From assembly GCA_922989275.2 (NCBI GenBank), contig OV277871.1:32374693-32438692 (forward strand): a stretch of 64,000 nucleotides of DNA. The letters are read 5' to 3'. A model generated the notes under the pieces. That model was not told the origin of the DNA. It did not search any database and saw nothing but the letters and a program-made list of their open reading frames with translations. Below are positions 4,525 to 47,470 of this stretch, one piece after another; the first letter of the stretch is position 1; each line of letters starts with the position of its first letter. A program made the position numbers and the translations under genes. The DNA is from Gari tellinella (taxonomy: Eukaryota; Mollusca; Bivalvia; Cardiida; Psammobiidae).

Positions 4525-5629
4525 AATATCTGATAGATTGTCATTCATAAATACTCTAACTATACACAAAGTGGCAAAATATATCCTAGAAATATGTTTA
4601 TGCTGATACGCCGATTTAAAAATGAATAACTAAAAAAAAAACGGAACTTGAACCTTTTAACATTTAATCATGTGACGTCACACAGAAAGTTTGGTTAATT
4701 TCAATTGTTATTGAGCACTATCTTATAAATAAGTCAGTACAATTAAAGAATTAAAAGAACTGCCTTTGCAAAATAATTCTTGAATTTAAGTACCAGTAAC
4801 AGCAGAGAAATTGTAGTAATATCATATACATGTACCAATAGTAACAGCACTGACTTTAAATACCGTCATCATATACCTTAAAGGGTGCGTTTTTACTGAC
4901 AAAATACATTCCTTTGCCATAAATCACTACCCAGATTGTTTTTTACAAGACCATTATTTCCAAAATACATAGTTGTGATTTGGTAGTGTTATCAATTTAA
5001 GGTACAATCTGTTCGGAACATATCTAATTAAAAATAACTTTAGTAACAGTATAGATAATCAAGTAACAGGATGGAATTTAATGACTGTATTAGATAAGTT
5101 GGACATGCTTGTATTATATAAAACGCACGCCGTTTATAATAAAACTCTATCCATTTATTTGCCACAACCTTTCTAGTCCATCTAACACAGTGTAGTTTTA
5201 CAGTGCTATATTCTCAATATGCAATTTGATTCGAAACAAAGTAAATGAAAACCATCAGTAACAGCACTGAAATAACAAGTAACAGCATAGACTTTGTAAA
5301 CTAGATATCAACCATATTGGACGACACATTATGACTAACAACCTATGTTTTTGCTACAAAAATGTTATCTTGTTTGGTTCACACAGCTCATGCTTTCCAT
5401 ATACATATACAGTTGAATAAAGTATGTTCTGTTCTGTTCATGTAACACTTCGTGGTTACGCACATGTCAAGATGCACGTCTATCTGAATAGCTTTAGTAA
5501 CAAGAACAGAGAATGAATAACAACTCAGAATATATTAGCAATATCAAACCAATTAGACAGCCTATCATTCATAGCAATAACAAGAGATTGTTATCAAATG
5601 CCATCTAGCTTGTTTGATATAGTCAATGG
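4525..5629. other. Non-coding stretch with GTAACAGCAC motifs
   Basis: No gene seen. GTAACAGCA-type words occur at 4796, 4841, 5258 and 5279, with weaker ones at 5043 and 5063, all in this orientation. A LINE-tail-like AATAAAGTATGTTCTGTTCTGTTC lies near 5417-5440. Confidence 0.6.
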
Positions 5630-18324: not shown

Positions 18325-18330
18325 CAGAAT
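18325..18330. other. Target site duplication CAGAAT, left
   Basis: CAGAAT directly precedes the palindrome and is repeated at 27916-27921 directly after it. Six-base duplications are the hallmark of Polinton/Maverick integrases. Confidence 0.85.
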
Positions 18331-18381
18331 AGTAGTAATGCTGGTTCTTTGCTGTCAATTAGCCCCGAGGGCGTGATGATG

Positions 18382-18422
18382 TTGACAGGCTGACCTCGTG
18401 GGCCTTGACAGGCTGACCTCGT
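18382..18422. repeat. 18-bp direct repeat pair near the left terminus
   Basis: TTGACAGGCTGACCTCGT occurs at 18382-18399 and 18405-18422, separated by GGGCC. Mirrored at 27824-27864. Confidence 0.9.
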
Positions 18423-18447
18423 AATGACCGTATACTGCGGTAAGCGA

Positions 18448-18619
18448 GTAACTCGGCGTTTCACCTGAACACGTTTTCTTCATAGGACGTCCGGTAGAAA
18501 TACCAAAGACACCGTAAATTAAGCAGGTGACACTTTACTCCGAAACGTTTAAAATTAAGATATATAGCCCGAGAGAGATAAAAACACAGTTTAACGAATA
18601 ACCAATAGTATGCAACGTC
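18448..18619. repeat. Subterminal 172-bp repeat, left arm copy 1
   Basis: Runs from GTAACTCGGCGTTTCACCTG to GCAACGTC and is repeated 514 bp further in. Contains GTCCGGTAGAAATACCAAAG. Confidence 0.9.
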
Positions 18620-18961
18620 AAAAAGTCTCGTAGGCATCAAGACGGCGGCAAAGACCTAAAAGGCTCGACCTCACTATTCGTTCGTAATGACAAAACTGGA
18701 TACTTTTTGCGCTGCATATCTGCCTATCTTATAAAACGCCTCAATTGAAAAATACTTCATTTGCAATAGCCTATAAAGAACTATTCTAAAAATAATGCGT
18801 TCATTCGCGCTATGTTTTGGGGACACATTTGCAGAACGTTATAAGGCGGCGCTTAACGTAAACACCCGAGCTACAAAAAAGCGCTGAATTGGGTCTTTTC
18901 CTAATACGATCGCGTTGAATTAACCCTTTATACGTGTGAAACGAAAATTAGTCTTACGCAG

Positions 18962-19133
18962 GTAACTCGGCGTTTCACCTGAACACGTTTTCTTCATAGG
19001 ACGTCCGGTAGAAATACCAAAGACACCGTAAATTAAGCAGGTGACACTTTACTCCGAAACGTTTAAAATTAAGATATATAGCCCGAGAGAGATAAACACA
19101 CAGTTTAACGAATAACCAATAGTTTGCAACGTC
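18962..19133. repeat. Subterminal 172-bp repeat, left arm copy 2
   Basis: Near-identical to 18448-18619, with differences such as GATAAACACAC for GATAAAAACAC near the inner end. Confidence 0.9.
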
Positions 19134-19514
19134 CAACTACCGAATACGTGCACGTACAGTTTATAAAAGTTTAATATAGCCATCACACTGCGAATTCAAT
19201 TCTGAAAACGAAACCTTTATAAACTGACCACGACGTTTGTTCAGAACATGACCTGAGTATAGCGCGCTCATTAATTTGCACGAACCCTCGTTGCAGAAAC
19301 CACCTTAGTGCCTAAACACCGTGAAATGTAAAACATACGCCTGTCGCTAAACCGGCTTCATTCGTGGTACATAGATAGCACGCTTTGGCGTTAGTTAAAC
19401 TCATTTACCTGTAGGCATTCGTTTTGACCGTACGGAACACAGAAAATGTATCTTGCCTACGAAATGTGATTATTTATTAGATGAGCCAATATGCAGCGTA
19501 CAAAGTGTCGATTA

Positions 19515-19617
19515 AGGACGTCCAGTAGAAATACCAAAGACACCGTAGATTAAGCAGGTGACACTTTCGTTACTCTGAAACGTTTGGTATAAAATTAAGA
19601 TATATAGCCCAAGAGAA
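19515..19617. repeat. Subterminal repeat, left arm copy 3, shortened and diverged
   Basis: Shares AGGACGTCC(A)GTAGAAATACC and AAATTAAGATATATAGCCC with the other two but has small insertions. Confidence 0.8.
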
Positions 19618-20230
19618 TTGAAGTTAATATTGCGGAATGTATGCAATCATGATGTATAGGCAGCTGATTACTTTAGTCCTTATTTAAGCTACACCTTTAT
19701 CTCGTAAATCAATTACATGTATGCCTAAACACTAAATAAAATGTAAACTCATTATAATACATTGAAAAGTCTCCCTATTTGGTCAAAGTTTTATTTTATT
19801 TGGACAAAGCGGCATCAATTGCATATATCACGGAGTAAATACGCGTCTTTTGACATTACTATATATTGCCTTTTTGACGAGTTTACACTTTGACGAATCG
19901 TCCGTAAGTCGGGGTTAAAAGTTCTCTAGAGTTTATGTTATATTGTTTTTATGTCCCGACAGTAAATAAAGCGTTTCTATTGTATTGTAATGAGGTATAG
20001 TTGTCACATTTACGATACTATTATATAAAAGCAATTTAAAAAACAACAATTATAGTAGTCCTAATTGGTGCGCGATATTACCAGTTTGACGAAACCACCA
20101 TATGTTAGGGTACAGTACACTATAAGATTGTCGAATTGGCTCCAGGGGGCAGTACACAATGATAAATTTTTCGATTTCCTTAAATTTAGGTGCGGAAAGA
20201 ATTCTATTGTACTCCTTAAACATTAATTTA
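19618..20230. other. Non-coding part of the left arm
   Basis: No ORF or known motif seen. The mirror is 26016-26628. Confidence 0.5.
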
Positions 20231-20345
20231 AATGTATTATAGACTACTGCTGCTTCTGCTACTACTACTTTTGCTATTTTATCGTTATAATTTCATACAA
20301 TGACAACTACTACTACTACTGTTTCTACTACTACTACAACAACTT
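20231..20345. repeat. CTA/CTG trinucleotide-rich stretch, left arm
   Basis: Interrupted runs of CTACTACTACT and TGCTTCTGCT. Mirror at 25901-26015. Confidence 0.8.
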
Positions 20346-20359
20346 CTCCTATTGCTAGC

Positions 20360-20365
20360 TTTATT
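20360..20365 (-). terminator. Candidate polyadenylation signal, left arm
   Basis: AATAAA on the minus strand about 205 bp beyond the stop of the 131-residue ORF; it is the first such signal downstream of the three-gene run. Confidence 0.4.
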
Positions 20366-20570
20366 ATCATTATGACACTCTCAGTTTCACCTCTAGCGAG
20401 GTTACTCACGTTCTGAGCCAACGAGAAGGCGGTGTCTTATTTCAGAACATCCCCACACAGTCTATTTACAGTTATGTACACTATTTTGTCCAATATTTCT
20501 CGCATTATTTTCTCTTAATTCTCACGCTCTGGCGCTAACTTTTCGTTTAGGTTCAGCTTCGTTATTCGCG

Positions 20571-20966
20571 TTAGTAGTTGTACCAGTTCAAAGGGTCACT
20601 TCCCTTCCTACCCTGCTCGTGAATAGCAGTTCTGTCCTCCCTATGGTTCTTAGCATTTTGTCTGATTTCCGACTTTACCATTTCGATCGCTTGAGCCACC
20701 GGAGTGATTAACTTGACTGTAGGCCCGCGTTTCAATTTCGCTTCCGCTTCTTCCAATTTCCGTTCCGTCTCTTTCAATTTTTCTTCCATGTCGCGTAGCT
20801 TTTTAGACATATACCCTGGTCCATGTTTCTTCGCTTCCATCCGGTCTAATATCTTTTGATAATAACGTTCGGCGTCTTCGGGGGTATCCAGAAAAGGTAC
20901 CCATTTGAGCAGGTCGTTATCGAAAACTTCTATGGATCCCATGTCTTTTTCAAATGCAACACGCAA
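20571..20966 (-). CDS. 131-residue coiled-coil protein, left copy
   Basis: Function unknown. Residues 53-80 are a charged heptad-like stretch (KKLRDMEEKLKETERKLEEA) typical of a coiled coil; the C-terminus ends in NWYNY. No membrane segment or signal peptide. Met9 (20942) is an alternative start that cuts the overlap with the preceding ORF from 37 to 13 bases. The translation is identical to the right copy at 25280-25675. Its place behind the ATPase and the 158-residue gene on one strand suggests a virion or assembly role, but that is inference from context only. Confidence 0.75.
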   Translation of the reverse strand: MRVAFEKDMGSIEVFDNDLLKWVPFLDTPEDAERYYQKILDRMEAKKHGPGYMSKKLRDMEEKLKETERKLEEAEAKLKRGPTVKLITPVAQAIEMVKSEIRQNAKNHREDRTAIHEQGRKGSDPLNWYNY

Positions 20967-21406
20967 TGTAAGTGGTTGGTGTTAAATATCACGGGCTTCA
21001 GATTTTCGTCAAGCAACTGCAACTTCAACGTATGTAACCGAGTCGTTTTCAAAGGTACGTAGAAAGGGTTGATGTAAATTTCAGTTTTGAGTTTCTTGTA
21101 ACTATGCACTTCGATATTTCTCAGCACCGGAAGTAGGGTGTCTCTGACGCAGGACTCTTGTACGAGGTCACAACACAAGTACAGTCGGGAACTTCTCGGT
21201 GTAAAATCGCAATCGAGGGTTATGTCAATGAGCGCACAGGACCATTGACCTTCCAAACTATAGGGTTTAGGCAGTTGGATCCAACACTCTGCGGGGTTGT
21301 TTTTCTTATAGAGAACGAGAGAATCTCGACTAGTCACAAATAAATGCAAGTCTTTCATTTTTATAGACGCGGTAACGCTTCTCCGAGTCGGGTTAACTCT
21401 TCTCAT
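20930..21406 (-). CDS. 158-residue conserved-looking Polinton-region protein, left copy
   Basis: Not assigned to a named family. It opens with a basic stretch (MRRVNPTRRS) that may be dispensable if Met17 is the true start, followed by a strand-rich segment (LHLFVTSRDS, QLPKPYSLEG, CALIDI). A central CCDLVQES segment and a closing FYVPLKTTRL / VLHLKK segment recall small proteins encoded beside capsid genes in invertebrate Polintons. I suspect a minor virion protein. Starts 80 bases after the ATPase stop and overlaps the 131-residue ORF in another frame. Identical to the right copy. Confidence 0.75.
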   Translation of the reverse strand: MRRVNPTRRSVTASIKMKDLHLFVTSRDSLVLYKKNNPAECWIQLPKPYSLEGQWSCALIDITLDCDFTPRSSRLYLCCDLVQESCVRDTLLPVLRNIEVHSYKKLKTEIYINPFYVPLKTTRLHTLKLQLLDENLKPVIFNTNHLHCVLHLKKTWDP

Positions 21407-21486
21407 GTGGTCATGATTTCATCTAGAATCGCTCGGTATTAATAATGCGGGTACTACAGAATGGTGACGTTTGAAGAGAGTTATTC

Positions 21487-22809
21487 TTATACTGTGTCTT
21501 CGGTCGATGATTTATCTTCATTATCGGTCATCGCATCCTCTTCTGGAATGACCTGATCAGGCCATACCTCATAAAACAAATCTTTTCTCAGTTTAACCGC
21601 TTGACGTATAGACTCTTCGACATTCATTGAATGCTGTCGCCTGAGCATTTTGGCCGACTCTAAAACATGTCGTTGTATCGGATCGCCTCTTAACTCGTGG
21701 AAATCGATAAGAAATCTGGTGTACATATTTCTCAATGCCTTTCTTAGCGAGGGAAGCTCATCATTGACAGCTCTGGGGAACGCTTTATCTAGTGCGTAAC
21801 CTCGCTTTACATAGTCGTTCGCTGTAGCTTTTAATTGATCAGCGTGATATTCTCTCAGTGGAATTTTAAACCTGTTGTTCCATATGTCAGGACGTGAACG
21901 CTCCTCGCTCAGCTCTACCTGTTTACGATGACCAGGTGGTCCCGTATCGTCACTCCAAACATCATTGGAGTCGTGTTGACTGTCATTGTCTTCCTCACTT
22001 TCTATTTCAACTCCATATGGCAACGCATTATAGGAGTCAGTCGCTTCTTCGTATTCATCGTCCAATCGCTTTCTCTTGTTTACTCCAAAAATGTTATCTC
22101 GTAAACGGTCTGGTTCCGGGGTATTCGGTTTCAAGTCTATTACCAAGTAGCCGTGAGGGTAGGACGTCGTATGTTCAAATCGCTTCATGAAAACTGCATG
22201 GGATGAAGGGTAAATCCGTCGTGCCAAAGTGGCTACTTGTTGTCTGTCGATGGGATTATTAAATAATACCAAATACTGCGTGTTTAAGGCGATGTCCCTG
22301 CAAGCTTTGCCTTGAGGAAATAAATTTTGAGTCAGATATACGATCGAGATATTTCTGTGGTGGCTGCCTTTAGTAAAGAGATCTGCTATTCTCTGGTCAC
22401 ACTTAGCTTCAGTCATTAAGTCGTCAAACACAAGAAGGGTCCTTTTACTTCCATCGATATACTGGGAATCGTCCAGATGCTCTGGGATACCTCGTATAAA
22501 TTCCATCGATGGTTTGATACGCTTCAGTGTGTCATAAAGAGGTTGCCATTGTCCGTAGCACCAGATAATTCTCTGAGGGGAAGGCTGAATTAGGGAGGAA
22601 TTCAACAGTTGTCTAGTCCAATGAGTTTTCCCGCTACAGCTGGGTCCCGACACTACCATAGAAAAAGGATGTTGAAAGGTTATTTGTTTAGACGTTGGTG
22701 GTAGAGCTAGTGTATGATCGATTGTATCGGTTCCGTGGACATTACGTTGATGTCTCACCATATTGTCATATCTAGAGAAAGTAACGGAACATTGACTGCA
22801 GCGCTTCAT
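21487..22809 (-). CDS. A32-like packaging ATPase with N-terminal C2H2 finger, left copy
   Basis: 440 residues. Residues 4-25 form a C2H2 zinc finger (C4, C7, H20, H25). A P-loop GPSCSGKT lies at 55-62, a Walker B LLVFDDL at 125-131 and a sensor-like YLTQN at 158-162, the order of FtsK/HerA-type genome-packaging ATPases such as poxvirus A32 and Polinton ATPases. These drive genome entry into capsids. The C-terminal half (about 250-440) is acidic around 265-300, then basic and helical; its role is unclear. Residue 213 is His here and Gln in the right copy, the only arm difference I found. ORF intact, no intron needed. First of three co-oriented genes. Confidence 0.9.
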   Translation of the reverse strand: MKRCSQCSVTFSRYDNMVRHQRNVHGTDTIDHTLALPPTSKQITFQHPFSMVVSGPSCSGKTHWTRQLLNSSLIQPSPQRIIWCYGQWQPLYDTLKRIKPSMEFIRGIPEHLDDSQYIDGSKRTLLVFDDLMTEAKCDQRIADLFTKGSHHRNISIVYLTQNLFPQGKACRDIALNTQYLVLFNNPIDRQQVATLARRIYPSSHAVFMKRFEHTTSYPHGYLVIDLKPNTPEPDRLRDNIFGVNKRKRLDDEYEEATDSYNALPYGVEIESEEDNDSQHDSNDVWSDDTGPPGHRKQVELSEERSRPDIWNNRFKIPLREYHADQLKATANDYVKRGYALDKAFPRAVNDELPSLRKALRNMYTRFLIDFHELRGDPIQRHVLESAKMLRRQHSMNVEESIRQAVKLRKDLFYEVWPDQVIPEEDAMTDNEDKSSTEDTV

Positions 22810-22859
22810 GATTACAAATACTAAGCTGTAAAGCCATTCTTATGTGCTTTGCAAGTGTA

Positions 22860-22919
22860 TTCTTCCTCCTCCTCCCTCCTTACCCTCCTCCTCCCCTCCT
22901 CCTCCCTCCTCCTCCAACC
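22860..22919. repeat. Polypyrimidine tract, left arm
   Basis: About 60 bases of CTCCTCC-type sequence, almost pure pyrimidine on the plus strand, between the ATPase start and the truncated RING ORF. Mirror at 23327-23386. Confidence 0.85.
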
Positions 22920-22929
22920 TCAATCCATC

Positions 22930-23118
22930 TTATGTTGTTAAAACAGATGCTGGTTGTGGAGGTGGTGGTGTTGTCCTGTGTACATCTTGTGGGTTTGTTT
23001 TTTTTTTTGCTAAAAGAAAGATTCGAGTCAAGCTTAAAACATGCTGTTTACAATAGCAACATGGCCTCTGTCGGAGAAATATGGCTCCACACGATGAACA
23101 TAGAGTATGTCCGCATGC
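22930..23118 (-). pseudogene. Truncated RING finger, left copy
   Basis: Same reading as the right copy (CGHTLCSSC...CCYC, then a proline-rich tail), but on this strand the loop sequence puts a stop immediately upstream, so no start codon precedes it. The first zinc-ligand pair of the RING is missing because the palindrome centre falls inside the domain. Confidence 0.65.
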
Positions 23119-23316
23119 TTAAACCCTGCATGCGGACATACTCTATGTTCATCGTGTGGAGCCATATTTCTCCGACAGAGGCCATGTTGCTATTGTAAAC
23201 AGCATGTTTTAAGCTTGACTCGAATCTTTCTTTTAGCAAAAAAAAAAACAAACCCACAAGATGTACACAGGACAACACCACCACCTCCACAACCAGCATC
23301 TGTTTTAACAACATAA
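23107..23316 (+). pseudogene. Truncated RING finger ORF, right copy
   Basis: A 69-residue open frame whose start codon lies in the left arm and which reads through the loop. Cys9, His11, Cys14, Cys17, Cys27 and Cys30 fit zinc ligands three to eight of a C3HC4 RING (CGHTLCSSC then CCYC). The usual first CxxC is absent, so the fold would be incomplete. RING proteins are commonly ubiquitin ligases. The tail has a PPPP run. The parental gene presumably extended further upstream before the fold-back. Expression of this remnant is doubtful. Confidence 0.65.
23119..23127. other. Palindrome loop
   Basis: TTAAACCCT, the only unpaired bases of the palindrome. It is flanked by GCATGC on each side, a sequence that is itself self-complementary. 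Confidence 0.95.
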
Positions 23317-23326
23317 GATGGATTGA

Positions 23327-23386
23327 GGTTGGAGGAGGAGGGAGGAGGAGGGGAGGAGGAGGGTAAGGAGGGAGGAGGAGGAAGAA
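23327..23386. repeat. Polypurine tract, right arm
   Basis: GGAGGAGG-type run just upstream of the ATPase start, mirror of 22860-22919. Confidence 0.85.
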
Positions 23387-23436
23387 TACACTTGCAAAGC
23401 ACATAAGAATGGCTTTACAGCTTAGTATTTGTAATC

Positions 23437-24759
23437 ATGAAGCGCTGCAGTCAATGTTCCGTTACTTTCTCTAGATATGACAATATGGTGAGACATCAAC
23501 GTAATGTCCACGGAACCGATACAATCGATCATACACTAGCTCTACCACCAACGTCTAAACAAATAACCTTTCAACATCCTTTTTCTATGGTAGTGTCGGG
23601 ACCCAGCTGTAGCGGGAAAACTCATTGGACTAGACAACTGTTGAATTCCTCCCTAATTCAGCCTTCCCCTCAGAGAATTATCTGGTGCTACGGACAATGG
23701 CAACCTCTTTATGACACACTGAAGCGTATCAAACCATCGATGGAATTTATACGAGGTATCCCAGAGCATCTGGACGATTCCCAGTATATCGATGGAAGTA
23801 AAAGGACCCTTCTTGTGTTTGACGACTTAATGACTGAAGCTAAGTGTGACCAGAGAATAGCAGATCTCTTTACTAAAGGCAGCCACCACAGAAATATCTC
23901 GATCGTATATCTGACTCAAAATTTATTTCCTCAAGGCAAAGCTTGCAGGGACATCGCCTTAAACACGCAGTATTTGGTATTATTTAATAATCCCATCGAC
24001 AGACAACAAGTAGCCACTTTGGCACGACGGATTTACCCTTCATCCCATGCAGTTTTCATGAAGCGATTTGAACAGACGACGTCCTACCCTCACGGCTACT
24101 TGGTAATAGACTTGAAACCGAATACCCCGGAACCAGACCGTTTACGAGATAACATTTTTGGAGTAAACAAGAGAAAGCGATTGGACGATGAATACGAAGA
24201 AGCGACTGACTCCTATAATGCGTTGCCATATGGAGTTGAAATAGAAAGTGAGGAAGACAATGACAGTCAACACGACTCCAATGATGTTTGGAGTGACGAT
24301 ACGGGACCACCTGGTCATCGTAAACAGGTAGAGCTGAGCGAGGAGCGTTCACGTCCTGACATATGGAACAACAGGTTTAAAATTCCACTGAGAGAATATC
24401 ACGCTGATCAATTAAAAGCTACAGCGAACGACTATGTAAAGCGAGGTTACGCACTAGATAAAGCGTTCCCCAGAGCTGTCAATGATGAGCTTCCCTCGCT
24501 AAGAAAGGCATTGAGAAATATGTACACCAGATTTCTTATCGATTTCCACGAGTTAAGAGGCGATCCGATACAACGACATGTTTTAGAGTCGGCCAAAATG
24601 CTCAGGCGACAGCATTCAATGAATGTCGAAGAGTCTATACGTCAAGCGGTTAAACTGAGAAAAGATTTGTTTTATGAGGTATGGCCTGATCAGGTCATTC
24701 CAGAAGAGGATGCGATGACCGATAATGAAGATAAATCATCGACCGAAGACACAGTATAA
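23437..24759 (+). CDS. A32-like packaging ATPase with N-terminal C2H2 finger, right copy
   Basis: 440 residues, same domain order as the left copy: C2H2 finger 4-25, P-loop 55-62, Walker B 125-131, YLTQN 158-162. Residue 213 is Gln (codon CAG, base 24075). All catalytic motifs look functional. The start at 23437 is chosen because it places the zinc finger at the extreme N-terminus and matches the left copy. Stop to next start is 80 bases. Expected to act in the nucleus or in virion assembly if expressed. Confidence 0.9.
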   Translation: MKRCSQCSVTFSRYDNMVRHQRNVHGTDTIDHTLALPPTSKQITFQHPFSMVVSGPSCSGKTHWTRQLLNSSLIQPSPQRIIWCYGQWQPLYDTLKRIKPSMEFIRGIPEHLDDSQYIDGSKRTLLVFDDLMTEAKCDQRIADLFTKGSHHRNISIVYLTQNLFPQGKACRDIALNTQYLVLFNNPIDRQQVATLARRIYPSSHAVFMKRFEQTTSYPHGYLVIDLKPNTPEPDRLRDNIFGVNKRKRLDDEYEEATDSYNALPYGVEIESEEDNDSQHDSNDVWSDDTGPPGHRKQVELSEERSRPDIWNNRFKIPLREYHADQLKATANDYVKRGYALDKAFPRAVNDELPSLRKALRNMYTRFLIDFHELRGDPIQRHVLESAKMLRRQHSMNVEESIRQAVKLRKDLFYEVWPDQVIPEEDAMTDNEDKSSTEDTV

Positions 24760-24839
24760 GAATAACTCTCTTCAAACGTCACCATTCTGTAGTACCCGCA
24801 TTATTAATACCGAGCGATTCTAGATGAAATCATGACCAC

Positions 24840-25316
24840 ATGAGAAGAGTTAACCCGACTCGGAGAAGCGTTACCGCGTCTATAAAAATGAAAGACTTGC
24901 ATTTATTTGTGACTAGTCGAGATTCTCTCGTTCTCTATAAGAAAAACAACCCCGCAGAGTGTTGGATCCAACTGCCTAAACCCTATAGTTTGGAAGGTCA
25001 ATGGTCCTGTGCGCTCATTGACATAACCCTCGATTGCGATTTTACACCGAGAAGTTCCCGACTGTACTTGTGTTGTGACCTCGTACAAGAGTCCTGCGTC
25101 AGAGACACCCTACTTCCGGTGCTGAGAAATATCGAAGTGCATAGTTACAAGAAACTCAAAACTGAAATTTACATCAACCCTTTCTACGTACCTTTGAAAA
25201 CGACTCGGTTACATACGTTGAAGTTGCAGTTGCTTGACGAAAATCTGAAGCCCGTGATATTTAACACCAACCACTTACATTGCGTGTTGCATTTGAAAAA
25301 GACATGGGATCCATAG
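24840..25316 (+). CDS. 158-residue conserved-looking Polinton-region protein, right copy
   Basis: Translation identical to 20930-21406. Met17 (24888) is an alternative start. Overlaps the next ORF by up to 37 bases (TGGGATCCATAG at the stop), a compact arrangement seen in viral rather than host genes. Role unknown; a minor virion protein is my guess from neighbourhood. Confidence 0.75.
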   Translation: MRRVNPTRRSVTASIKMKDLHLFVTSRDSLVLYKKNNPAECWIQLPKPYSLEGQWSCALIDITLDCDFTPRSSRLYLCCDLVQESCVRDTLLPVLRNIEVHSYKKLKTEIYINPFYVPLKTTRLHTLKLQLLDENLKPVIFNTNHLHCVLHLKKTWDP

Positions 25317-25675
25317 AAGTTTTCGATAACGACCTGCTCAAATGGGTACCTTTTCTGGATACCCCCGAAGACGCCGAACGTTATTATCAAAAGATATTAG
25401 ACCGGATGGAAGCGAAGAAACATGGACCAGGGTATATGTCTAAAAAGCTACGCGACATGGAAGAAAAATTGAAAGAGACGGAACGGAAATTGGAAGAAGC
25501 GGAAGCGAAATTGAAACGCGGGCCTACAGTCAAGTTAATCACTCCGGTGGCTCAAGCGATCGAAATGGTAAAGTCGGAAATCAGACAAAATGCTAAGAAC
25601 CATAGGGAGGACAGAACTGCTATTCACGAGCAGGGTAGGAAGGGAAGTGACCCTTTGAACTGGTACAACTACTAA
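25280..25675 (+). CDS. 131-residue coiled-coil protein, right copy
   Basis: Translation identical to 20571-20966, coiled coil at 53-80. The alternative start Met9 is at 25304. It is the last ORF of the arm; the remaining 2.2 kb to the terminus has none of note. Confidence 0.75.
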   Translation: MRVAFEKDMGSIEVFDNDLLKWVPFLDTPEDAERYYQKILDRMEAKKHGPGYMSKKLRDMEEKLKETERKLEEAEAKLKRGPTVKLITPVAQAIEMVKSEIRQNAKNHREDRTAIHEQGRKGSDPLNWYNY

Positions 25676-25880
25676 CGCGAATAACGAAGCTGAACCTAAA
25701 CGAAAAGTTAGCGCCAGAGCGTGAGAATTAAGAGAAAATAATGCGAGAAATATTGGACAAAATAGTGTACATAACTGTAAATAGACTGTGTGGGGATGTT
25801 CTGAAATAAGACACCGCCTTCTCGTTGGCTCAGAACGTGAGTAACCTCGCTAGAGGTGAAACTGAGAGTGTCATAATGAT

Positions 25881-25886
25881 AATAAA
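25881..25886 (+). terminator. Candidate polyadenylation signal, right arm
   Basis: AATAAA about 205 bp after the last stop codon. Confidence 0.4.
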
Positions 25887-25900
25887 GCTAGCAATAGGAG

Positions 25901-26015
25901 AAGTTGTTGTAGTAGTAGTAGAAACAGTAGTAGTAGTAGTTGTCATTGTATGAAATTATAACGATAAAATAGCAAAAGTAGTAGTAGCAGAAGCAGCAGT
26001 AGTCTATAATACATT
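25901..26015. repeat. TAG/CAG trinucleotide-rich stretch, right arm
   Basis: Mirror of 20231-20345: GTAGTAGTAGTAG and AGCAGAAGCAGCAG runs. Confidence 0.8.
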
Positions 26016-26628
26016 TAAATTAATGTTTAAGGAGTACAATAGAATTCTTTCCGCACCTAAATTTAAGGAAATCGAAAAATTTATCATTGTGTACTGCCCC
26101 CTGGAGCCAATTCGACAATCTTATAGTGTACTGTACCCTAACATATGGTGGTTTCGTCAAACTGGTAATATCGCGCACCAATTAGGACTACTATAATTGT
26201 TGTTTTTTAAATTGCTTTTATATAATAGTATCGTAAATGTGACAACTATACCTCATTACAATACAATAGAAACGCTTTATTTACTGTCGGGACATAAAAA
26301 CAATATAACATAAACTCTAGAGAACTTTTAACCCCGACTTACGGACGATTCGTCAAAGTGTAAACTCGTCAAAAAGGCAATATATAGTAATGTCAAAAGA
26401 CGCGTATTTACTCCGTGATATATGCAATTGATGCCGCTTTGTCCAAATAAAATAAAACTTTGACCAAATAGGGAGACTTTTCAATGTATTATAATGAGTT
26501 TACATTTTATTTAGTGTTTAGGCATACATGTAATTGATTTACGAGATAAAGGTGTAGCTTAAATAAGGACTAAAGTAATCAGCTGCCTATACATCATGAT
26601 TGCATACATTCCGCAATATTAACTTCAA
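26016..26628. other. Non-coding part of the right arm
   Basis: Mirror of 19618-20230; nothing recognised. Confidence 0.5.
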
Positions 26629-26731
26629 TTCTCTTGGGCTATATATCTTAATTTTATACCAAACGTTTCAGAGTAACGAAAGTGTCACCTGCTTAATCTA
26701 CGGTGTCTTTGGTATTTCTACTGGACGTCCT
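26629..26731. repeat. Subterminal repeat, right arm copy 3
   Basis: Mirror of 19515-19617. Confidence 0.8.
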
Positions 26732-27112
26732 TAATCGACACTTTGTACGCTGCATATTGGCTCATCTAATAAATAATCACATTTCGTAGGCAAGATACAT
26801 TTTCTGTGTTCCGTACGGTCAAAACGAATGCCTACAGGTAAATGAGTTTAACTAACGCCAAAGCGTGCTATCTATGTACCACGAATGAAGCCGGTTTAGC
26901 GACAGGCGTATGTTTTACATTTCACGGTGTTTAGGCACTAAGGTGGTTTCTGCAACGAGGGTTCGTGCAAATTAATGAGCGCGCTATACTCAGGTCATGT
27001 TCTGAACAAACGTCGTGGTCAGTTTATAAAGGTTTCGTTTTCAGAATTGAATTCGCAGTGTGATGGCTATATTAAACTTTTATAAACTGTACGTGCACGT
27101 ATTCGGTAGTTG

Positions 27113-27284
27113 GACGTTGCAAACTATTGGTTATTCGTTAAACTGTGTGTTTATCTCTCTCGGGCTATATATCTTAATTTTAAACGTTTCGGAGTAAAGT
27201 GTCACCTGCTTAATTTACGGTGTCTTTGGTATTTCTACCGGACGTCCTATGAAGAAAACGTGTTCAGGTGAAACGCCGAGTTAC
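27113..27284. repeat. Subterminal 172-bp repeat, right arm copy 2
   Basis: Mirror of 18962-19133. Confidence 0.9.
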
Positions 27285-27626
27285 CTGCGTAAGACTAATT
27301 TTCGTTTCACACGTATAAAGGGTTAATTCAACGCGATCGTATTAGGAAAAGACCCAATTCAGCGCTTTTTTGTAGCTCGGGTGTTTACGTTAAGCGCCGC
27401 CTTATAACGTTCTGCAAATGTGTCCCCAAAACATAGCGCGAATGAACGCATTATTTTTAGAATAGTTCTTTATAGGCTATTGCAAATGAAGTATTTTTCA
27501 ATTGAGGCGTTTTATAAGATAGGCAGATATGCAGCGCAAAAAGTATCCAGTTTTGTCATTACGAACGAATAGTGAGGTCGAGCCTTTTAGGTCTTTGCCG
27601 CCGTCTTGATGCCTACGAGACTTTTT

Positions 27627-27798
27627 GACGTTGCATACTATTGGTTATTCGTTAAACTGTGTTTTTATCTCTCTCGGGCTATATATCTTAATTTTAAACG
27701 TTTCGGAGTAAAGTGTCACCTGCTTAATTTACGGTGTCTTTGGTATTTCTACCGGACGTCCTATGAAGAAAACGTGTTCAGGTGAAACGCCGAGTTAC
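27627..27798. repeat. Subterminal 172-bp repeat, right arm copy 1
   Basis: Mirror of 18448-18619. Confidence 0.9.
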
Positions 27799-27915
27799 TC
27801 GCTTACCGCAGTATACGGTCATTACGAGGTCAGCCTGTCAAGGCCCACGAGGTCAGCCTGTCAACATCATCACGCCCTCGGGGCTAATTGACAGCAAAGA
27901 ACCAGCATTACTACT

Positions 27916-27921
27916 CAGAAT
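27916..27921. other. Target site duplication CAGAAT, right
   Basis: Second copy of the six-base flank; the host sequence continues GGTAATGTCC. Confidence 0.85.
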
Positions 27922-45972: not shown

Positions 45973-46640
45973 TGACTCTGGGTGCGATTTTACAGTTTGG
46001 ATTCAGATAAAATATTAACCTTCTGCACGTTACGGGCGATTTCGTGATTATTACTGCAAATAGTTTGGATCCAGTTCAGGTCGTGATATGAACTATTTGA
46101 CACTCGGTGCGATTTTACAGTTCGGATCCAGATGAATATTTTCAGAGACATACAATATATATGTCTCTGAATATTTTCCTTCTGCACGTTACGGGCGAAT
46201 TCATGATAATGGCTGCAAATAGTTTGGACCCAGACTAGATCGTGATACGATGAGTTTGGTACTCGGTGCGATTTTAGTTTGGATCCAGATGAATATTAAG
46301 TTTTATTAACCTTCTGCACGTTACGGGCGATTTCTAGACTATTGCTGCAAATAGTTTGGATCCAGTTCAGATCGTGATACGAACTGTTTGACACTCGGTG
46401 CGATTTTAGTTTGGATCCAGAAGAATATTAACCTTCTGCACGTTACGGGCAATTTCGTGATTATTGCCACAAACAGTTTGGATCCAGATCAGATCGTGAT
46501 ACGAACTGTTTGACACTCGGTGCGATTTTACAGTTTGGATCCAAATGACTACACGCTACGAGCGAATTCATGATTATTGCTGCAAATAGTTTGGATCCAG
46601 ATCAGATCGTGATACGTACCGTTTGACCAATCGGGTTCGA
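45973..46640. repeat. Tandem array of ~120-155 bp hairpin-derived units
   Basis: Five units start at CTCGGTGCGATTTT (45976, 46103, 46260, 46393, 46515), each with TTCTGCACGTTACGGGCGA, GCAAATAGTTTGGATCCAG and GATCGTGATACGAACTG. The second unit has a small palindromic insertion (GAGACATACAATATATATGT..). One unit is a GGATCC-type hairpin core plus spacer, repeated head to tail. Confidence 0.85.
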
Positions 46641-47470
46641 TTTATAAAGATATAAAAAAAACTCATGGAATTGGTGAAGACGCAAAGTTTGCAGACGACA
46701 ATTACATATCAAGCAGCTAGAGGGCTAACCCAGAGGGGGAGGGTCGAATCTAACGCTGTGAGAATTTGTGATCCGACCCCATTTCAATATGTATATATGG
46801 AAATAAAATATGTTTAAAATAACCCATGCAATTGGCAAAAGTGATTATTTGTAAAAACATTTTTTTTGTGCAAATATTTTAGATCGAGATGAGATCTGGA
46901 ACAACTGCTTTACACTCGGATGCTATTCTATGTTGATATGAAATGCATTACAATCCACTAAGACGAAATTTGCAGACGAAACTTTCATACTTGATCAAGG
47001 AGAAGGCTAACTCAATTTGGAAGTATGATTATTGATGGAAATAATTTGAATCAAGACGATTATTAACCTTTAATATATACACGATACCGCGAATTCATTA
47101 TTACTGTTGCAAACAGTTTGCATCCAGATGAGATCTGGATCAACTGTTTGACACTCTGCATGCTATTTCATGATGAAATACAATGCATAAAAATCACTCG
47201 TGTAGAAACATTAACTTTTAATTGCATCATGTATATAAGCCAGTTCTTAAATTAACACTTCTGCATTGATTTGTTTTTTAATTATCAAATACTTATCGAG
47301 TATTAGTTACAGACTGTAAAGATTGCAATGGGTGTCATTATGATATATACTAAACTCGCGGCAATACATTTTTTTATACATCAAAGTGTTAGCAGTGTGA
47401 ACCAAGACCTCGCGTAACGCTGGGTCTAATCAATATCCAAACTGTTCGACATATTTTAGATCAGGCAATG
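46641..47470. repeat. Diverged continuation of hairpin-derived repeats
   Basis: Isolated cores near 46880-46920 and 47108-47160 (CAAACAGTTTGCATCCAGAT / ATCTGGATCAACTGTTTG), and half-cores near 47430, with GCAGACGA words between. Confidence 0.55.

Follow-up and report, generated by a model that had tools for sequence, protein, structure and literature searches.

How a 9.6-kb palindrome came to lie in the genome of the bivalve Gari tellinella, and how its two arms are kept alike, is the question raised by a 64,000-nucleotide stretch of contig OV277871.1 (forward strand, positions 32,374,693 to 32,438,692; assembly GCA_922989275.2), hereafter the window, in whose numbering all positions without a contig prefix are given. 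An original prediction had described the element as a Polinton (Maverick) derivative formed by fold-back of one genome end during protein-primed-type replication and then integrated. We identified it as one member of a multi-copy family of palindromes that share their ends with PolB-bearing Polintons, and we think it rather probable that the family is a non-autonomous satellite which depends on a 17-kb Polinton, arose through copy-back during protein-primed replication and now propagates as a palindrome or hairpin.

Geometry and genes of the window palindrome

The left arm (18331..23118, plus strand, 4788 bp) starts with AGTAGT and the right arm (23128..27915, minus strand, 4788 bp) finishes with ACTACT; the accessible part of PMC8097293 gives (AGT)2...(ACT)2 as the commonest end motif of vertebrate Mavericks. 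Between the arms lies a central loop, TTAAACCCT (23119..23127), flanked by GCATGC stems at 23113-23118 and 23128-23133. Positions x and 46246-x were complementary at 4787 of the 4788 arm positions, the sole mismatch being 22171/24075, and a repeat finder returned the arms as one inverted pair (I1) of 4788 nt separated by 9 nt; the arm coordinates originally proposed were right. The claimed target-site duplication, CAGAAT, was present on the left (18325..18330) and on the right (27916..27921), and just outside the arms 26 of 131 positions paired, which is chance level, bearing out the assertion that the flanks are unrelated to each other. The palindrome is too long to have arisen by chance, and its 6-bp duplication and Polinton ends (AGTAGT/ACTACT) agree with the predicted insertion of a palindromic Polinton derivative as a unit. 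A direct repeat unit lies at 18441..18622 and again at 18955-19136 (plus strand, 97% identical, 514 bp apart), mirrored on the minus strand at 27110..27291 and 27624-27805 according to the repeat finder, and the arm length of other copies varies in steps of about the size of this unit.

From the centre outward, each arm encodes a 440-amino-acid ATPase with a C2H2 finger, a penton-like protein and an overlapping open reading frame (ORF) of 123 amino acids, and the outermost ~2.2 kb of each arm contains no ORF longer than 104 amino acids. The zinc-finger/A32-like packaging-type ATPase of the right arm (23437..24759, plus strand) matched Pfam Pox_A32 (E 6.1e-06; 26.3 bits against a cut-off of 22.8) and Adeno_IVa2 (E 1.5e-04), substantiating the A32-like ATPase that had been claimed, and its N-terminus matched a Pfam C2H2 finger under the cut-off of that profile. 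Its mirror copy (21487..22809, minus strand) was located by ORF and genome matches. The putative penton, a single jelly-roll minor capsid protein, is encoded at 24888..25316 (plus strand; the frame opens at 24828) and was assigned from its predicted fold and its identity to Polinton pentons, the best BFVD match of the structure model being a Drosophila-associated adintovirus 2 protein (E 4.2e-10); the mirror copy, at 20930..21358 on the minus strand, was supported by ORF and protein matches. The 123-amino-acid ORF overlapping the penton gene (25304..25675, plus strand; mirror copy in the ORF list at 20571..20942, minus strand) looked coiled-coil-like by eye. The ATPase family appears widespread, with 266 related database proteins counted (120 of them listed), and in a PDB profile search the 60 matches viewed, of 65, cover the zinc-finger part only. 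Searches of PHROGs and NCBIfam with the element's own proteins returned nothing, or merely weak matches of a 136-amino-acid frame, and viral contig scans with the penton, the ATPase and a penton alignment gave 3, 2 and 11 pattern matches, none of them confirmed.

Neither PolB (PF03175) nor an integrase (rve) was matched up to E 1 in the five ORFs of the element that were scanned, and no Rep gene was among them. The longest other arm ORF has 162 amino acids, and no ORF beyond that length was found for a double jelly-roll major capsid protein or a protease, spliced genes remaining possible. The arm genes look constrained: pN/pS (nonsynonymous relative to synonymous polymorphism) was 0.38, 0.17 and 0.25 (13, 14 and 15 copies), in sums over copy pairs that are not independent, and copies differed about a quarter as often within the genes (0.0025) as over the outer 1.9 kb (0.0099; 12 copies). 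Identity of the penton region (24757-25680) was 99-100% at each of the 40 places listed (40 of 80 candidates scored), even in the copy at C16:41.90M, which diverges by several percent over its outer 1.2 kb; this suggests that element ends are exchanged or evolve faster than the genes.

Palindromic copies and PolB-bearing Polintons in the genome

With 15 of 1033 candidates scored, comparison of the window arm with the genome (1.6 Gb, 80 contigs) gave at least 32 matches, the majority forming inverted pairs elsewhere. An end pattern allowing at most one mismatch was found at 69 places, and at none with the reversed pattern as control; these ends formed 33 inverted pairs and 3 single ends. The original prediction had proposed searching the same genome for further palindromic copies, and in 20 of the 33 pairs ATPases did lie as mirror images equally far from the two ends, the left arm being shortened in one of these pairs (C16:41.90M). 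The ATPase was present in broken symmetry in two further pairs and as a single copy in three; two pairs held an open PolB, three had NADAR-region matches on both strands (at equal outer distance in one of the three), two had such a match on one strand, and one, with a penton at 90%, had none of ATPase, PolB and NADAR. All counts are lower bounds, since the pattern misses some ends (e.g. beside PolB at C7:50.16M). The census drew on 64 of the 129 PolB matches (one for each locus), on every one of the 95 ATPase matches and, after removal of short ones, on 17 of 34 matches to the NADAR region. The query for that region included sequence beside the gene, and at C3:57.2M and C7:83.6M just the downstream part of the query matched. 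The underlying searches scored 94 of 566 candidates for ATPase, 79 of 275 for PolB, 40 of 215 and 40 of 395 for ends, 40 of 80 for penton DNA and 150 of 301 for penton protein. An element of 14.3 kb (C9:52578116-52592410) that has these ends and a 90% identical penton showed no PolB or ATPase among the matches listed and is perhaps a PolB-deleted Polinton.

Arm halves were fetched for 15 copies, 12 symmetric and three asymmetric (C16:3.57M, C16:41.90M and C2:107.36M). Fourteen had the ends AGTAGTAATGCTG, with a perfect 6-bp duplication in 13 of the 14; the fifteenth (C11:34.78M) had the ends AGTAGTAATGTTG and, read by eye, TGTGCG on both sides. Among four additional palindromes, three were flanked by duplications (GATAAT, ATGTTT and AATACT, by eye) and the fourth has one left-flank base to compare. 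Altogether, both flanks were read in 18 ATPase-family copies (15 symmetric, three asymmetric); 17 carry 6-bp duplications, and all 17 differ. These data bear on the reading of the palindromes as chromosomal inverted duplications or assembly fold-backs. Such events do occur in this assembly, as a palindrome at C15:1152521-1164293, centred near PolB matches on both strands, runs on into its host flanks (we had considered it as a palindrome of a PolB end and dropped it for that reason). The unrelated flanks of the window copy (26/131) and the distinct, perfect duplications directly outside AGTAGT/ACTACT in 17 of 18 copies make this reading highly improbable for the family; for the window copy it was rejected on the same grounds, an assembly error being very unlikely because other copies have flanks and duplications of their own.

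A full-length element with an end matching the arm, which the original prediction had also proposed to look for, was found at C15:49341151-49358192. Together with C17:9121843-9138878 it makes a pair of 17.0-kb Polintons with a 1492-amino-acid PolB frame free of stops. In the part of the former that was read, its right 9.9 kb (L058), PolB matched PF03175 at E 5.8e-49 and the end matched arm positions 1-1286 at 97.2% and 1334-1911 at 89.6%, corresponding to 18331..20241 (plus strand) in the left arm and, by mirror symmetry, to 26005..27915 (minus strand) in the right; the window element thus shares its ends with a candidate autonomous Polinton (97.2% over 1.29 kb). The C17 element is linked to the window element by end motif and PolB, and the pentons of the two Polintons are 90% and 92% identical to the arm penton. 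With a separate 16.2-kb Polinton at C3:52886873-52903121 (open 1597-amino-acid PolB, AGTAGT ends, duplication AGTGTT), these elements indicate that PolB Polintons with suitable ends are present in the genome. The nearest ATPase match to any PolB place was 343 kb away (95 ATPase matches and 64 PolB places among those listed).

Derivation of the whole arm from a full-length Polinton was rejected. L058 has its own A32-like ATPase frame (215 amino acids, Pox_A32 E 4e-06), just 37% identical to that of the window, so that the predicted fold-back of one genome end stands for the outer 1.9 kb, which is a Polinton end, but not for the remainder. The mirrored half resembles instead the ATPase-penton half of a shorter, putatively non-autonomous element at C3:55539257-55549201, one of three with the same ends, a single ATPase and a single penton match; in this one the ATPase is preceded, 1.6 kb upstream and on its own strand, by a NADAR gene, and the others (C12:53458461-53468436 and C17:1210458-1222369) gave no NADAR-region match. 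A NADAR-ATPase arrangement of the same order and similar spacing also occurred at C14:19.98M and C9:32.85M, two places without a matched end. Likewise, the predicted integration of a symmetrical form held as far as the insertion of a palindromic unit is concerned, but the 20 mirrored pairs describe a multi-copy family and not a single snap-back accident.

Formation and propagation of the mirrored form

If the family is a satellite of this kind, the protein-primed PolB of the helper, a Polinton such as those described above, would start on the AGTAGT end, and the displaced or nascent strand of the palindrome would fold into a 4.8-kb hairpin with the central loop at its closed end. Synthesis continuing around that loop would regenerate the double-stranded 9.6-kb palindrome with two identical ends, which the helper integrase would insert with a 6-bp duplication. 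A jumping-back start of protein-primed replication, as argued for Mavericks in the available portion of PMC8097293, agrees with the AGT repeats. The first palindrome would go back to a non-palindromic satellite (end-NADAR-ATPase-penton-end) whose replication reversed direction between NADAR and ATPase and so mirrored the ATPase-penton half.

Arms were compared in the 12 symmetric copies (the three asymmetric ones were skipped), and 12 and 11 of the 15 fetched copies entered two further comparisons. Over 11 symmetric copies of ~4.79 kb, arm-arm mismatches, counted with gaps excluded, summed to 14 (2.7e-4 per site). In all 11 the closest arm was the copy's own second arm (0-4 mismatches, against 6-19 for the nearest foreign arm), although copies diverge from one another by 1.0 to 17.6 per 1000, which indicates that arms are made alike in every cycle or after insertion; the scarcity of arm-arm differences further suggests recent insertions, unless gene conversion erases the differences. 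On Y chromosomes, palindrome arms are kept alike by gene conversion, and a palindrome formed once could have moved thereafter as ordinary double-stranded DNA by way of the Polinton integrase, with no hairpin stage and with its arms homogenized in the chromosome. Arm identity alone fits both readings equally, and the GCATGC stem found beside the loop in 16 of 16 centres read indicates that the ATPase palindrome probably had a single origin. On the other hand, the loops vary (nine types among the 16 centres, one centre being a perfect 20-nt palindrome) while the stems are constant, the ends of the asymmetric copy C16:3.57M have not been homogenized over 1 kb (13 differences in 1055 positions), and recurrence of the process is shown by palindromes that carry other cargo or grew from the opposite side. 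We therefore consider a single formation without a hairpin unlikely.

Recurrence is documented by two sets of elements. The first is a NADAR palindrome (L056/L057) with 99.6% identical arms, the duplication GATATT and the same end sequence at 95%, in which no ATPase or penton is present; its NADAR domain matched PF08719 at E 1.5e-44 (positions 2233-2760 of L056, C9:28005773-28011000). Taken with the ATPase-penton palindromes, it suggests that a NADAR-ATPase-penton element has each of its halves represented by palindromes, from which we infer the descent of each from one half. A sub-threshold NCBIfam match of the L056 protein to a NADAR anti-phage protein suggests that the gene may be defence or counter-defence cargo. 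NADAR-region matches on both strands were also seen at C3:55203037-55211173 and C3:57199220-57209868, one of them merely beside the gene. The second set is a sister family whose ATPases are 43-60% identical to those of the window family and which therefore probably represents independent mirror growth. In L055 (duplication TAACGG), 1.8-kb mirror arms surround a single ATPase and penton; in L051 (duplication ATTACC), 3.0-kb arms each contain a penton, with one ATPase between them, a layout shared by L052; L053, built from the opposite side, is palindromic throughout, with the N-terminal parts of two ATPases facing each other and no penton present. L055, L051 and L053 form a graded series of mirror growth, which we count in favour of the copy-back account; with the NADAR palindrome, L053 establishes that palindromes formed more than once. 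A chimera, L054 (C3:88701300-88711200), in which the N-terminal part of the ATPase is 95% like the window family and the remainder and penton are like the sister family, indicates that the two families recombine. Inverted end pairs 6.7-8.2 kb apart, similar to L055 and with no PolB match listed, occurred at C14:43.32M, C6:98.17M, C9:66.42M, C16:58.00M and C5:21.90M, and are possible additional satellites.

Besides the C15 palindrome described above, several observations weigh against a satellite made by copy-back. No target duplication flanks the copy at C9:20.05M, whose arms are unequal by a gap of 8 nt; L053 likewise lacks a duplication and has the end ACTACG. The ends of C16:3.57M differ from each other as much as from other copies, a divergence not explained by deletion within a clean palindrome after insertion. 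Arm identity could also stem from chromosomal gene conversion or from youth. As to the proposed precursor, a search in which all 24 candidates were scored gave a NADAR match in only one of the three single-ATPase elements, and the NADAR palindrome's inner portion remained unmatched to C3:55539257-55549201. As to the helper, its ATPase, in the one read, differs from that of the window family, and the rve search located no integrase in the helpers (150 of 1817 candidates scored; 9.9 of 17.0 kb of one helper read). The evidence is the sequence of one genome, and any free or packaged form of the DNA is hypothetical.

The occurrence of PolB, ATPase-penton and NADAR in separate elements with the same ends, together with pN/pS below 1, would also be compatible with segments of a multipartite Polinton virus, each group residing on a segment of its own. 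Both PolB elements have a penton, and the one read has an ATPase, so that for these the other segment is not needed; we regard this arrangement as quite improbable. Somewhat less doubtful, though still unlikely in our judgement, is that the palindromes represent an independent lineage of hairpin-genome satellite viruses, whose own ATPase and penton would load the 4.8-kb hairpin or the 9.6-kb palindrome into helper capsids in competition with the helper, as virophages do with giant viruses; palindromy would then be an adaptive, heritable genome form with three or more origins in a single host.

The window (1-64000) also contains dense short-repeat families that have TCAGACGCCGGGTAACCCGGCGTCTGA as their palindromic core, a 61-nt stretch present in 53 copies of at least 60% identity, 348 inverted pairs of at least 60 nt and, at 46011-46664, a short tandem array with a unit of ~122-132 bp.

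Relation to known replicons and significance

The window element shares with Polintons the 5'-(AGT)2...(ACT)2-3' ends, 6-bp duplications, an A32-type ATPase and a penton gene (PMC8097293, accessible part), but is 9.6 kb rather than ~17 kb long and fully palindromic, contains every gene twice, lacks PolB and has no ORF matching integrase, protease or major capsid protein. Among adintoviruses and meldviruses, genomes with virion genes of the adenovirus class and no recognisable PolB or integrase are reported in the consulted sections of PMC11071296. The best match of the penton model is an adintovirus protein, as given above, whereas none of the OTU-PolB, chromodomain integrase and hexon that those sections ascribe to adintoviruses was found in the element, and they do not mention a palindromic layout for meldviruses. 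Parvovirus and adeno-associated virus replication (a paper on the topic is PMC8195378) resembles the process proposed here in single-strand fold-back and copying round a hairpin; here, however, the fold lies in the middle rather than at the ends, and no Rep was present among the ORFs scanned. Among the papers listed from the open-licence literature, none described a palindromic Polinton or Maverick in its title or the start of its abstract, though this does not prove that no description exists.

Elsewhere, palindromic forms of protein-primed genomes are known as defective by-products, made in the laboratory or short-lived: symmetrical defective genomes of adenoviruses, palindromic derivatives of the protein-primed linear plasmid pGKL1 and phi29 palindromes made in vitro. 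The Gari tellinella elements are probably similar in that one end of a protein-primed linear genome is mirrored, giving two origins, but differ in being integrated, multi-copy and endowed with genes that look constrained. Rather than such by-products, they form a sizeable, apparently recent, gene-bearing family beside PolB Polintons, in which the extrachromosomal copying of Polintons, a step otherwise hard to observe, may be recorded legibly, from the protein-primed end through fold-back and mirroring of the genome to integration. A mobile element can thus persist as a near-perfect palindrome, a form usually thought to be poorly tolerated in chromosomes, and the family provides natural material with which to test virus-like replication and packaging of such Polintons, and whether satellites of them exist.

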